Of a DNA stretch of 10,505 bases, positions 51 through 8,288 are shown piece by piece (the stretch's first letter is position 1; each line of letters starts with the position of its first letter). The notes under the pieces are model-generated. The model had not been told where the DNA came from, did not search any database, and worked only from the letters and a program-made list of their open reading frames with translations. The translations under genes and the position numbers were made by a program. Source of the DNA: Tannerella sp. (lineage in GTDB: Bacteria > Bacteroidota > Bacteroidia > Bacteroidales > Tannerellaceae); the NCBI GenBank assembly GCA_031288935.1, contig JAITQL010000155.1, forward strand, positions 1 to 10,505. Direction: 5' to 3'.

Positions 51-270
51 TCTGAACCTTGATTTGCCTGATTAAAGGATTTACTTGATGAATACAATCC
101 TGACAATCCTTTAATCAGGCAAATCAAGGTTCGGACAGAAAGGATTTGCTTGATGAATAAATCCTGACAATCCTTTAATCAGGCAAATCAAGGTTCAGAC
201 AGAGAGGATTCGCTGGATGATTACCATCCAGCCAATCCTTTAATCTTGCAAATCACGGTTCGGACAATTG
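50..270. repeat. Three tandem 64-65 bp repeats with an inverted half copy
   Basis: Three direct copies begin with GGATT at 77, 142 and 206. Copies A and B are nearly identical, and copy C (206-270) is diverged. Each copy contains a core like CCTTTAATCAGGCAAATCA followed by AGGTTCRGAC. A fourth, inverted partial copy at 50-81 is a perfect 32-bp reverse complement of 169-200 (copy B) and matches 105-136 (copy A) with one difference. Within copy B, 143-154 can pair with 178-189 (12 pairs, one G-U). No ORF spans the element. It resembles dispersed intergenic repeat families known in Bacteroidota, but I cannot assign a named family. It may be a mobile palindromic element, a remnant of one, or a transcription-end structure for the gene to the left. 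Confidence 0.85.
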
Positions 271-4937: not shown

Positions 4938-6917
4938 TTAATCCCTTATCGGGATGTATTGGACAAAGGCTTCGATGGCTTCGTAGGAGGCCAGGCCGAG
5001 TTGCTGATACAGTTCGGCCGTGGCGCGGTTGCGGTCTTCGGCGCGTTGCCAGAACAGCCGTTCGTCGTCGCCCATGAACGGGGCGCTTTCGGCCTGCGAC
5101 TGGTGTTTCAGGATGGCGTTCCGCTTGAAACGAAGCTCTTCCGGACTGATGGGTACGGCCATCTCGATGTGATCCATTTCCCACTCCGCCCATGCGCCGC
5201 GGTACATCCATATGCGGCAGTTCTTCATCCAGGCCTCGTCCTTCAGGTCGTCGACGGCCGCCAGCACGGCGTCCAGACAGACCTTGTGCGTCCCGTGCGG
5301 ATCGGCCAGGTCGCCGGCCACGAACATCTGATCCGGCCGGATGTCCGTCAGCAGTTTGCGGATGATGTCGATGTCCGCTTCGCTCAGGTCGTTTTTCTTG
5401 ATGACGCCCGTTTCGTAGAAGGGCAGATCGAGGAAATGAACGTTTTCGTCCCTTACGCCCGAAAAGCGGCAGGCGGTGCGCGCTTCTTCGCGGCGGATCG
5501 TTCCCTTCATGAAGAGGACGTCCGGCTGTTCCGGCTCGCCGGTCTTCTTGCCGTAACGCAGGAAGCGGATGATTTCTTCGGCCTTGCGGCGGACGGTTTC
5601 ATCCGCCGTGTATCTGGAACAGACGTCGCGCAGGTATTCGCAATAGCGGATGACGTCCTCGTCGCTGACGGCAATGTTGCCGGAGGTCTGATAGGCTACG
5701 TGCACCTCGTGACGCTGGTCGCAGAGCCGGCGGAAGGTGCCGCCCATCGAAATCACGTCGTCGTCGGGATGCGGACTGAAGACGATGACTTTTTTCGGAA
5801 AGGGCGTGGCGCGTTCCGGGCGGTTGGCGTCGTCGGCATTCGGTTTGCCGCCCGGCCAGCCCGAAATCGTGTGTTGAATGTCGTTGAATATTTTAATGTT
5901 TACATTGTAGGCCGAACCGTAGAGCGTAATCAGTTCGCCCAGTTCGTGCTCGATGTAGTCCTTGTTCGTCAGCTTCAGGATGGGTTTGCCGGTCAGGCGG
6001 CAGAGCCAGACGATCGCCCGGCGGATCAGCTTGTTGTCCCATTCGCAATGGGTGGAGACGAGCCAGGGGTGACTGATGCGGGTCAGTTCGCAGGCAGCCT
6101 GCAGGTCGATGATGACTTTCGCATGGCTGTGACTGTGCAGGCTGGCGGCGGGCAAGGAGCCGTTCAGCCCGTCTTCTGCCAGGCGGCGGACGTCGGACGA
6201 TTTCCCTTCTCCCCAGGCCAGCAGCCGGATGTTCCTTGCACCCAGGATCGTGGCCAGACCCATGGCAACGGTGCCGGACGGCACCTGGTTGAACGACCGG
6301 GCGGCTTTCTTGCGCGACTTGTTGTCGAGCATCACCAGGTGGGTGCGCGAACTGATGGCCGACCCCGGGCCGTTGAATCCGACGGAGCCGGAATGACCGA
6401 TGCCCGAAATCAGGCAGTCGATACCGCCGGCTTCTTCAATCTGCCTGTCATATCCGCTGCAAAAGTCGTAGAGGGACTCTTCGCTCATGAACCCGTCCGG
6501 CGAATGCACATGCGCCGGGTCGATGTCTACCCGGTTCAGGAAGTCCGCCTTCAGGCGCGCCAGACTGCCGGTGTCGGCCGTTGTGAGCGGATAAAATTCG
6601 TAGATCAGGAAGACGGTCACGTTTTTGAAACTCAGCGCCTCCTCGCGGTACATCCGTATCCATTCGTTGAACACGCCTCGCAGCGAACGCCCGCCGGACA
6701 GCGCCAGCACATAGGGTTTCGACGCCGTCTGCCGGTCGCGAATCTGCTTCGCAATCTCCCGCGCCACGGCCAGGGAACCTTCTTCTACTTGACTGTAAAT
6801 AAATACCGGTATTTTTTCAAAACGCGCAAGGACGGAATGTTCATACGCATTTTCAGGCTGATAAAACCGTTTCGGTATGTTCGTCAGCGTGATTTTTGAA
6901 CTCAGATTCGTCTTCAT
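4938..6917 (-). CDS. NagB-like domain fused to PIG-L/LmbE deacetylase domain
   Basis: The protein has 659 residues. Residues about 25-290 resemble glucosamine-6-phosphate deaminase, with a sugar-phosphate loop LSGGRSLRGVF (73-83) and the frame GIGHSGSVGFNGPGS. By alignment from memory with E. coli NagB, catalytic Asp72, Asp141, His143 and Glu148 correspond to Tyr106, Ser176, Ser178 and Gly183, so deaminase chemistry is very unlikely. Residues 290-372 form a conserved-looking linker. Residues about 376-640 are a PIG-L/LmbE N-acetyl-sugar deacetylase-type domain: SPHPDDD (381-387), MGG (391-393) and DPHGTH (539-544) supply the usual zinc ligands. Similar fusions of about 660 residues occur across Bacteroidales and are annotated as glucosamine-6-phosphate deaminase-like. 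A plausible role is hydrolysis of an N-acyl amino sugar, with the NagB half binding sugar phosphate. No signal peptide is seen, so it is cytoplasmic. It is first in a unit with the BASS-like transporter and has a short leader of about 13 bases. Confidence 0.9.
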   Translation of the reverse strand: MKTNLSSKITLTNIPKRFYQPENAYEHSVLARFEKIPVFIYSQVEEGSLAVAREIAKQIRDRQTASKPYVLALSGGRSLRGVFNEWIRMYREEALSFKNVTVFLIYEFYPLTTADTGSLARLKADFLNRVDIDPAHVHSPDGFMSEESLYDFCSGYDRQIEEAGGIDCLISGIGHSGSVGFNGPGSAISSRTHLVMLDNKSRKKAARSFNQVPSGTVAMGLATILGARNIRLLAWGEGKSSDVRRLAEDGLNGSLPAASLHSHSHAKVIIDLQAACELTRISHPWLVSTHCEWDNKLIRRAIVWLCRLTGKPILKLTNKDYIEHELGELITLYGSAYNVNIKIFNDIQHTISGWPGGKPNADDANRPERATPFPKKVIVFSPHPDDDVISMGGTFRRLCDQRHEVHVAYQTSGNIAVSDEDVIRYCEYLRDVCSRYTADETVRRKAEEIIRFLRYGKKTGEPEQPDVLFMKGTIRREEARTACRFSGVRDENVHFLDLPFYETGVIKKNDLSEADIDIIRKLLTDIRPDQMFVAGDLADPHGTHKVCLDAVLAAVDDLKDEAWMKNCRIWMYRGAWAEWEMDHIEMAVPISPEELRFKRNAILKHQSQAESAPFMGDDERLFWQRAEDRNRATAELYQQLGLASYEAIEAFVQYIPIRD

Positions 6918-6936: not shown

Positions 6937-6967
6937 CAAAGTTATGACTTTTCACGTGAAAAAGAAA
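6937..6967 (-). promoter_or_regulatory. Promoter of the NagB/PIG-L gene with palindromic operator
   Basis: On the minus strand TAACTTTG (bases 6944-6937) is a perfect TAnnTTTG -7 box, and TTTC (6967-6964) lies 19 bases upstream, one base off the TTTG -33 box. Transcription would start near 6930, about 13 bases before the ATG at 6917. Between the two boxes sits a perfect 14-bp palindrome, TTTTCACGTGAAAA, at 6949-6962. A protein bound there would block RNA polymerase, so it is a good candidate operator. The regulator is unknown. Confidence 0.65.
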
Positions 6968-6989
6968 ATAATGTTCCTCCCCGCGCAGG

Positions 6990-7087
6990 GTAAACGCATC
7001 CCGGTTTATGCAATCTCCCTGCCTGCTGCCCGGCTCTGTTTCCCCTCATTGAGAGCCGTTCCGCGCTCCGAATGAAGATGCGTTTAC
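6990..7087. repeat. 11-bp inverted repeat enclosing a second hairpin
   Basis: GTAAACGCATC at 6990-7000 is the exact reverse complement of GATGCGTTTAC at 7077-7087. Inside lies a 7-bp stem, CGGCTCT (7031-7037) with AGAGCCG (7052-7058), with a 14-base loop. The structure ends 7 bases before the 21-bp array begins. No coding frame with family features is present. It could be the fold of a small RNA, the left edge of the repeat element, or chance; I cannot decide between them. Confidence 0.5.
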
Positions 7088-7094
7088 GCTGCCC

Positions 7095-7388
7095 GGACGG
7101 AAGATTCATCCGCGAGGATGGGAAGCTCATCCGTGAGGATGGAAAACTCATCCGTGAGGATGGAAAGCTCATCCGTGAGGATGGGAAGTTCATCCGCGAG
7201 GATGGAAGATTCATCCGCGAGGATGGAAAGTTCATCCGTGCGGACGGAAAGCTCATCCGTGCGGATGGGAAGTTTATCCGCGAGGATGGGAAGTTCATCC
7301 GTGCGGATGGAAGATTCATCCGTGCGGATGGAAAGTTCATCCGTGCGGATGGGTAGTTTATCCGCGAGGATGAAAGATTCATCCGTGC
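7095..7388. repeat. 21-bp tandem array, 14 units, each a hairpin
   Basis: Fourteen contiguous 21-bp units start at 7095 and every 21 bases to 7388; a decayed fifteenth begins at 7389. The unit is GGATG-N7-CATCC-N4. The arms are conserved (12 of 14 units for each), while variation sits mainly in the 7-base and 4-base spacers. Each arm can pair within the unit (7-base loop) or with the next unit (4-base loop). The 4-base spacer reads GTGA or GCGA in eight units and GTGC in six. Because 21 is a multiple of three, long open frames run through the array on both strands. One, from ATG 7072 to TAG 7354-7356, would encode 94 residues of a heptapeptide like GKFIRED. I do not call it a gene: no promoter or ribosome binding site is visible and the frame stops inside unit 13. 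The array lies between the divergent NagB/PIG-L and truA genes. Confidence 0.95.
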
Positions 7389-7474
7389 GGATGGATTTAA
7401 CATTTGTCCGAACGGCAGGTGCGTTTGCCCTGTTTGAGCATTGAACTTTTTCCCTTCGCGGATGGAAAAAAGCG

Positions 7475-7482
7475 TATCTTTG
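7475..7482 (+). promoter_or_regulatory. Probable -7 box of truA promoter
   Basis: TATCTTTG at 7475-7482 is a perfect TAnnTTTG -7 box. No good TTTG lies 19-20 bases upstream; the nearest T-rich tract (7447-7451) is about 23 bases away. Transcription would begin near 7489, only 2 bases before the in-frame ATG at 7491 and 32 before the ATG at 7521, which favours the latter as the truA start. The 11 bases at 7458-7468 match part of the 21-bp repeat unit. Confidence 0.5.
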
Positions 7483-7520
7483 CCCCCCTGATGAGAGAAA
7501 TTGAAATCAATGTAGATAGA

Positions 7521-8288
7521 ATGCACCGGTATTTCATGTATTTGGCCTATAACGGGACGCATTACTGCGGATGGCAGAAACAGCTCAACGGCCCCAGTAT
7601 ACAGCAATGTCTTGAGACGGCGCTGGCGACGCTGCTGCGCACGCCGACACCGCTGACGGGCGCCGGACGTACCGACGCCGGCGTACATGCCCGGCGGATG
7701 GTTGCCCATTTCGACTGCGCGGAGCCGGTAGTGAAGCTGTCCGTGCTCGCGGAGAAGCTGAACCGCCTGCTGCCGAAGGACATTGCGATAGAGCGGATCG
7801 TGCCGGTCAGGGCAGATGCGCATGCCCGCTTCGACGCCCTGTCGCGCACGTATCAGTACGTGATTGCCGGCCGGAAAAATCCCTTTGAACGGGAATGGGT
7901 GCTCCGCATGTCGCTGGACGGACTGGATTTCGTGCGCATGAACGAAGCGTGCCGCGTACTGGTCGGGACGATGGATTTTACGAGTTTCAGCAAGTTGCAT
8001 ACCGATGTCCGGACGCATATCTGCCGGATTTATCAGGCCGGATGGGAGCCTGACGGGGCACGGTGGGTGTTCACCGTCCGCGCCGACCGTTTCCTGCGCA
8101 ACATGGTGCGCGCGATCGTCGGCACGCTCTTTGAAGTGGGACGCGGCAAACGGACGGTGGCGGATTTCCGGCAGGTGATCGAGGCCAGAAACCGCAGCCT
8201 GGCGGGCGATTCGGCGCCGGGAAAAGGTCTTTCGCTGACGGATGTCGCCTATCCCGATTCCGTCTTCCTGCCATCCCCGATCTTTTGA
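7521..8288 (+). CDS. truA: tRNA pseudouridine(38-40) synthase TruA
   Basis: The 255-residue cytoplasmic enzyme converts uridines 38-40 of the tRNA anticodon arm to pseudouridine. The motif [11 protein letters not shown] at residues 47-57 carries the catalytic aspartate (Asp52, equivalent to Asp60 of E. coli TruA). The N-terminus [17 protein letters not shown], the SRTYQY strand with its active-site tyrosine, and the C-terminal segment [13 protein letters not shown] are all family marks. Length is normal. ATG 7521 (MHRYFMYL) is chosen because it matches the family start and sits about 30 bases after the predicted transcription start. ATG 7491 would add 10 residues, and the frame is open further up to 7404. 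The EamA permease gene begins 10 bases after the stop, so they are likely co-transcribed. Confidence 0.97.

Follow-up and report, generated by a model that had tools for sequence, protein, structure and literature searches.

A 21-bp palindromic minisatellite within a probable ISAs1-type MITE of a Tannerella genome, and a near-fixed period of tandem repeats in Tannerellaceae samples

Short mobile elements that carry a tandem repeat between their ends are known from Porphyromonas gingivalis, the closest to the present locus being the BrickBuilt MITE (PMC4596501). According to the available part of that source, BrickBuilt is short, intergenic and non-autonomous, has TIRs, a leader and a tail, holds an internal minisatellite of about two helical turns, occurs in several copies with varying unit number and is predicted to form long stem-loops, all of which applies likewise to the element described here. 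The two nevertheless differ in their parts: BrickBuilt combines a 23-nt unit with an IS5-type TIR (GAGACCTTTGCA and variants), whereas our element has a 21-bp unit, an ISAs1-type TIR, CAGGG(C/T)AAACGCATC, a Tannerella-like host, and 9-10-bp target duplications, the latter in one of its siblings and in copies of relatives. As both TIR and unit depart from GAGACCTTTGCA and 23 nt, the element was not assigned to BrickBuilt. In the same partial text the words 'helical' and 'slippage' are absent (term search), while P. gingivalis is credited with 41-, 23- and 22-nt tandem repeats, the same size classes. MITEPgRS/MITE464 of P. gingivalis, compared here by description only, is a MITE with internal 41-nt tandem repeats, the period of many arrays in a complete relative of our genome (G030), and its TIR is close to IS5-family ISPg elements (PMC4596501, available part).

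Other repeat families offer partial parallels. REP sequences and the GTAG- and CGTC-tagged palindromes are likewise small palindromic repeats of high copy number, being 20-40-bp palindromes tagged at one end (PMC3733652, available part), whereas our consensus unit bears neither GTAG nor CGTC and is arranged in head-to-tail arrays. The tandem repeats of archaeal Borgs are likewise genome-wide, independently arising, fast-evolving and both genic and intergenic, with the mechanism of their birth open, as here (PMC9879509, available part). Borg units are however perfect and enriched in A, and that part of the text lacks any word starting with 'palindrom', while the units described here show imperfections, exceed shuffles in average palindromicity and keep a near-fixed period. 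For this near-fixed period no description was found in the open-licence PMC literature, among the matches listed.

The window, that is the whole analysed stretch of 10,505 nucleotides, contains the following features around the array (strand in brackets where one applies):

4938..6917 (-): gene with glucosamine-6-phosphate isomerase-like (nagB) and PIG-L domains, outside the element
6937..6944 (-): TAnnTTTG box TAACTTTG, upstream of nagB-PIG-L, outside the element
6986..7432 (+): whole TIR-bounded element, 447 bp, supported by TIR matches at both ends and sibling copies in the same genome
6986..7000 (-): left TIR CAGGGTAAACGCATC, 1 mismatch to the searched TIR, from the inverted-repeat search
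7001..7091: leader, closed by a second TIR-like copy GATGCGTTTACGCTG at 7077-7091
7095..7394 (TRF 7099-7394): palindromic minisatellite, 14 copies of a 21-bp unit
7395..7417 (+): tail ATTTAACATTTGTCCGAACGGCA, common, with variation, to sibling copies
7418..7432 (+): right TIR GGTGCGTTTGCCCTG, 0 mismatches to the searched TIR
7475..7482 (+): TAnnTTTG box TATCTTTG, upstream of truA, outside the element
7491..8288 (+): truA, tRNA pseudouridine synthase TruA, outside the element

An array of fourteen 21-bp units between two divergent genes had been proposed in a sequence-only reading of this DNA, and both points hold: TRF recovers 14.0 copies at 7099-7394 (score 353), flanked by the nagB/PIG-L-like gene on the minus and truA on the plus strand. 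When units are set in the CATCC register, 12 of the 14 carry CATCC and the other two TATCC, while GGATG is found in 13 and GGACG in one. The entropy of the arm columns is 0 except for column 1 (0.59) and column 13 (0.37), against 0.37-1.20 in the 7-base spacer, and the proposed conservation of arms with variable spacers is thus borne out within this array. The 4-base loop is GCGA in five units, GTGA in three and GTGC in six, so the previous count of eight GNRA-type loops is correct. Taken alone, the consensus unit is modestly palindromic (longest perfect stem 5, z 2.1), and its identity to its own reverse complement is no higher than in shuffles (z -0.1). Curated Rfam models gave 0 matches in the window at gathering score, and phage and plasmid records no match to window 6975-7450. 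The array does not fit a CRISPR array, the spacers being recurring 4- and 7-mers, and no cas domain was found among nine window proteins tested (Pfam). A second tandem array is present near the contig start, at window 74-266, upstream of a DUF4861 gene; it holds 3.0 copies of a 64-bp unit, a period near three times 21.

The minisatellite forms the middle part of the TIR-bounded element at 6986-7432. On its left, the second TIR-like copy makes 6986-7091 a small inverted-repeat module in its own right. On its right, the tail includes one further, degenerate unit of 21 bp that keeps the register of the TIR; this 21-mer starts at 7401, exactly one period ahead of the CGTTTGCCCTG end of the right TIR (start 7422). 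The flanks of the window copy, CCTCCCCGCG and TTTGAGCATT, show no target duplication, and a transposase domain was found neither in the tested element ORF (7072-7356) nor in the other eight window proteins tested. Of the features that define a MITE, the element thus shows TIRs at both ends, no transposase gene found inside and several dispersed copies, and an autonomous IS sharing the TIR is seen in relatives (L395, L398, L402 and L421).

Nine places in the genome, window included, share the tail and/or the array. Arrays are found at C224 (the window), C212, C260, C152, C160, C243 and C75, whereas C49 has a single inverted unit pair and C65 is about 60 bp long with no array; the eight related copies outside the window hold 0 to 13 units each. 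These were recovered by array search (C212, C260, C152, C160), through the right flank (C65, C243, C49) or by the TIR pattern (C75), and a 29-base array match on C191 was left out of the copy count. The right TIR, within two mismatches, ends every copy but C212, which retains just the start of the tail. C243 displays TIRs and identical 10-bp flanks TTACCCGAAG, representing a perfect 10/10-bp target duplication. The leader has a match of the same orientation at C75 (85% over 85 bp) and inverted ones at C260 (84% over 62) and C152 (79% over 70). Several siblings, moreover, are without a recognisable left TIR, and together these points indicate that the element borders have been reshuffled. Three main unit types occur among the sibling arrays, CATCC....GGATG, CATTC....GAATG and CGTAY....AAACG, all of 21 bp. 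The 33-mer of tail plus TIR (up to 3 mismatches) was found in 1 of 41 genus genomes, its own only.

ISAs1 elements generally begin with CAGGG and produce target duplications of 8-10 bp. In the genus, 39 of 41 genomes contain the TIR pattern GATGCGTTTGCCCTG (at most 1 mismatch), with 221 matches in all, whereas the reversed pattern gave 7. We inspected 78 stretches, mostly around TIR matches chosen among the matches listed, together with the sibling places, a choice that left out likely chance variants and many contig-end matches. A TIR pair within 1.6 kb was present in 26 of the 78 (up to 3 mismatches per TIR, some pairs being chance), and 11 of these loci, C243 included, have a 9-10-bp target duplication (at most 1 mismatch) and 15 have none. 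Pairs about 1.1-1.3 kb apart enclose genes matching NF033564, the ISAs1 family transposase, as in L130 and L126 (217 and 134 bits) and further in L395, L402, L421 and L398; L398 and L126 are one and the same place. The same TIR thus bounds ISAs1-family insertion sequences with their transposase, in contrast to the window element, which is without one. NF033564 was detected in 27 of the 41 genomes, above its cut-off in 15, and was not found in the window's own genome, which is 55.66% complete. Other arrays are also enclosed by these TIRs, of 21 bp in G021, 42 bp in G030 and 22 bp in G025. At the G021 loci (L135, L165-L167, L169 and L171) the same TIR family surrounds a different 21-bp array, ATTACTGCCTGGTAATGGCGC, with 2.8 to 13.3 copies; this unit also occurs as rotations or as its reverse complement.

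Aggregated, these data make it quite probable that we are dealing with a non-autonomous ISAs1-type MITE, located between divergent genes and outside both putative promoters, whose internal minisatellite is the array. Speaking against this are the window copy's lack of a target duplication, the absence of an ISAs1 transposase match from its incomplete genome, the reshuffled borders and the 15 TIR pairs that show no duplication. Such a short TIR-ended element would be mobilised by an ISAs1 transposase encoded elsewhere, generating 9-10-bp target duplications, as seen in one sibling and in relatives' copies and presumably once produced for the window copy too. A palindromic segment inside the element would have been duplicated in tandem at a 21-bp period and then have grown and shrunk, probably by slippage or unequal crossing-over; copies carry 0 to 14 units, and the unit type differs between loci. 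The arms may stay complementary through a selected cruciform or hairpin structure, or through palindromes templating their own correction. The 21-bp period itself would not be peculiar to the element, rather follow a period pattern of the Tannerellaceae samples.

To describe this pattern, arrays of at least 3 copies and periods of 10-130 were counted, and called quantised when falling into the bands 20-23, 40-44, 61-65, 81-86 and 122-127, which were set after seeing the data and cover 26 of 121 possible periods. In five Tannerellaceae samples together, 107 of 118 arrays are quantised, distributed as follows:

nagB loci, 777 kb: 31 of 36
G030, the complete relative, 400 kb, arrays making up 5.0% of the DNA: 59 of 64
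Parabacteroides gordonii, 200 kb: 5 of 5
Parabacteroides bouchesdurhonensis, 200 kb: 4 of 4
the window's own genome, 141 kb: 8 of 9

The 80 nagB loci were selected for a gene and not for repeats. Another Parabacteroides, of which 80 kb were added later, contributed 3 of 4; two of these three are one array standing twice in identical form (22 bp, 3.5 copies, at 156-233 and 1927-2004 of L423, 1.8 kb apart). When collapsed by unit sequence, the 118 arrays form 102 clusters, 91 of which are quantised, and the pattern is found both in non-coding arrays (77 of 85) and in those called coding by a simple ORF caller (30 of 33). In other Bacteroidales families, used as controls, 661 kb held eight arrays, six of them called coding, and four of the eight were quantised, while E. 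coli K-12 had no arrays in 200 kb; the controls hold too few arrays to call their periods non-quantised. Array density per Mb reaches 160 in G030 and 64 in the window's genome, but 20-25 in the two Parabacteroides, no denser than the control genomes (19 in G044, 30 in G054). Thus, high density is a trait of the window's genus and the period pattern the shared one.

The bands do not depend on TRF. Exact 12-mer recurrence peaks at 42, 21, 84, 63, 126 and 105 in 47 nagB loci of other Tannerellaceae plus the window's own contigs, and at 42, 82, 41, 84, 123 and 126 in G030; in the Parabacteroides set the peaks, at 22 and 44, are weak (9 bins each) and closely followed by 77, 84 and 42. The G030 tiles (L304-L323) hold mostly arrays of 41-42 bp, with multiples at 82-84 and 123-124, and several units recur far apart. 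Outside the usual periods, a 77-bp unit of 43.6 copies was observed in Parabacteroides sp. Marseille-P3160 (L422). The preferred period differs within the family: 22-bp and 21-bp arrays stand at 18:2 in the Parabacteroides group and 4:16 in the remaining Tannerellaceae (Fisher 1.7e-5), or 30:4 and 6:22 when at least 2 copies are demanded (9.3e-8), with the arrays of one genome not independent, the 18 including the identical pair, and record titles being no phylogeny. Here, the Parabacteroides group comprises records titled Parabacteroides or Massilibacteroides (32 nagB loci and tiles of three genomes) and the other group 47 loci titled Tannerella or Tannerellaceae, G030 and the window's genome, one Bacteroidia record being left out. 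A preference for 22 bp weakens the earlier suggestion that the 21-bp period reflects exact two-turn phasing. Of 19 chosen loci near the nagB operon, six (L211, L242, L255, L260, L270 and L272) carry 22-bp arrays with differing units at about 2.1-2.9 kb, in each case in the upstream gap of a gene of one shared family close to nagB. Other 21-bp arrays matching the arm pattern were noted in G007 (L016) and G023 (L017), the latter, judged by eye, possibly a coding heptad.

Palindromicity is less general than period. In three groups the longest unit stems lie above every one of 200 dinucleotide-shuffle means (4.61 v 3.79, 4.38 v 3.77 and 5.94 v 4.34), a level that neither the five Parabacteroides units of 40-43 bp nor the eight control arrays attain. 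A z > 2 is reached by 25 of 47 G030 units of 40-43 bp and 7 of 22 nagB-locus units of 21-23 bp. Short duplications (1.8-3 copies, periods 16-60) of Parabacteroides peak at 22 (14 of 29), those of other Tannerellaceae being more mixed (20 of 50 at 21-22 or 41-42), and on this basis we slightly favour a mutational ruler as the cause of the period, with selection as the alternative. The ISAs1 TIR does not account for the arrays at large. Four TIR-pair places examined in G030 compare with 64 arrays in 400 kb, suggesting that the transposon carries repeats rather than explains them, and in six Parabacteroides-group genomes the TIR pattern is in weak excess (13 matches versus 5 for the reversed control), so a role of this TIR as the cause of all arrays is not supported.

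Would plain neutral slippage, acting on a chance duplication of 21 bp with no special period, be sufficient? Growth and homogenisation of the repeat are typical of slippage and the copy number differs between siblings, yet we regard this as unlikely in view of the crowding of arrays into bands that, although set after seeing the data, span a minor share of the possible periods, the quantisation of distinct unit clusters, and the recurrence peaks at 21/42/63/84/105/126 or 41/42/82/84/123/126, weaker at 22/44 in the Parabacteroides set.

Somewhat less probable still is a functional RNA or protein-docking array that regulates nagB-PIG-L and truA, with arms pairing in a transcript or seating proteins. 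Folding is strong on both strands, with -172.8 kcal/mol (z -14.1) for plus-strand RNA of the array and -120.5 kcal/mol (z -10.3) for the minus strand, each reached by 0 of 200 shuffles. However, in place of the two local folds with GNRA loops proposed from the sequence, the plus-strand minimum-energy fold is one long fold-back rod with a shorter stem and no string of small hairpins, the minus-strand fold being more branched. A GNRA loop is present in 0 of 54 sibling units, and such loops were therefore rejected as a kept feature. The arms do co-vary between siblings, in line with a kept structure, albeit in part. Among 48 of 49 distinct units from seven sibling arrays (one perfectly paired unit is missing, and neither degenerate tail units nor last units that run into the tail were included), 87.5% of arm cells are paired and 34 cells are changed on both sides; shuffles give 77.4% and 14.5 (0 of 500 shuffles each), while double-changed pairs (3 versus 3.1) and further pair types (7 versus 7.4) show no excess. 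Upon sliding the partner, 27-35% of arm cells pair, and pair 4-11 is broken in 19 of the 48. The claim that pairing is kept hence has partial support, from two of the four measures; as the units are related by descent, the excess does not translate into a probability. Unit sequence changes between siblings while the palindrome largely stays, and palindrome-templated repair or correction would yield the same complementarity of arms without selection.

Regulation draws further on BrickBuilt, for which promoter activity in E. coli reporters and transcripts mapping to the elements have been reported (PMC4596501, available part). The surroundings of our element nonetheless argue against such a role. 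Five TAnnTTTG boxes are present in the whole window, both strands counted. TAnnTTTG is a Bacteroidetes promoter motif, and the putative boxes of both genes stand outside the element, between it and each gene, so that the insertion spares both putative promoters. Among named records, those closest in the nagB-PIG-L gene are MAGs under the title Tannerella sp. (at best 82-83%), presumably from termite guts judging by isolate naming. In 80 nagB-PIG-L loci, with flanks of at most 5 kb and in part far shorter, neither a truA match nor a TIR (one mismatch allowed) was found, and the six closest of them, four of which extend 2.5-5 kb upstream, show no TIR or array ahead of nagB; conversely, truA flanks (up to 1.5 kb) of 29 relatives gave no nagB-PIG-L match. 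An array at this place in close relatives had been named beforehand among the tests of a role at the locus, and its absence points to a mobile, expanding repeat. Sigma-70-type sites number one versus 0.9 expected. Terminator-like sites number two versus 0.7, a slight excess that does not speak against regulation, and the non-coding arrays of G030 (30 tandem, 6 convergent and 6 divergent, with background gaps of 108, 33 and 33) have no clear gene-orientation bias; a terminator role was accordingly not established. A function of the array for the neighbouring nagB or truA is thus not supported, nor is a regulatory role needed for the preferred reading of an array inside an ISAs1-type MITE.

Very unlikely, in turn, is that the TIR gave rise to the units as a series of transposase-binding sites, on the model of elements whose subterminal sites are repeated. 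The tail 21-mer, in its sibling form and not in the letters of the window, does resemble the TIR (0 of 300 shuffles do as well) and lies in 21-bp register with it, and the unit of C243 and C75 shares GG.CAAACG (19 of 300 shuffles). On the other hand, types 1 and 2 of the window's genome are not TIR-like (280 and 34 of 300 shuffles do as well), nor are the units of G021, G030 and G025 (147, 299 and 43 of 300 as good), and the idea was rejected save for the tail 21-mer. A repeat-peptide gene, with 21 bp as seven codons, can practically be dismissed: 94-aa and 108-aa ORFs on the plus and a 452-aa ORF on the minus strand cross the array, but a period that is a multiple of three produces such open frames by itself, the Pfam matches DUF6799 and DUF3659 score 23.6 and 21.8 bits, under their curated cut-offs of 26.8 and 24.8 bits, and the 22-, 23- and 41-bp arrays of relatives cannot keep frame.

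Returning to the mobile element, it is most likely, by comparison of their plans, the ISAs1-type counterpart of BrickBuilt. As TIRs and units of the two are unrelated, this suggests repeated origins, within Bacteroidales, of MITEs that carry minisatellites of about two helical turns. The broader period pattern matters more than the window element itself. Tandem-repeat periods in bacteria are usually treated as slippage accidents, but here largely unrelated sequences share narrow periods, and within one family these differ by a single base from one group of records to the other. This asks for a ruler, either an enzyme making duplications of fixed length or a protein keeping arrays of one period. 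We tentatively propose, at rather less than even confidence, that in Tannerellaceae a sequence-blind, length-measuring process founds tandem duplications of a lineage-set size, the window array being one product that was later mobilised in an ISAs1-type element, with selection by a DNA-binding or DNA-packing protein as the alternative within the same reading. If true, this process would set sizes of about 22 bp in the Parabacteroides group and of 21 bp and 41/42 bp in the lineage of the window, and its products, palindromic minisatellites unrelated in sequence, would fill DNA to the 5.0% seen in 400 kb of one complete genome, a proposal that is testable in cultivable Parabacteroides.
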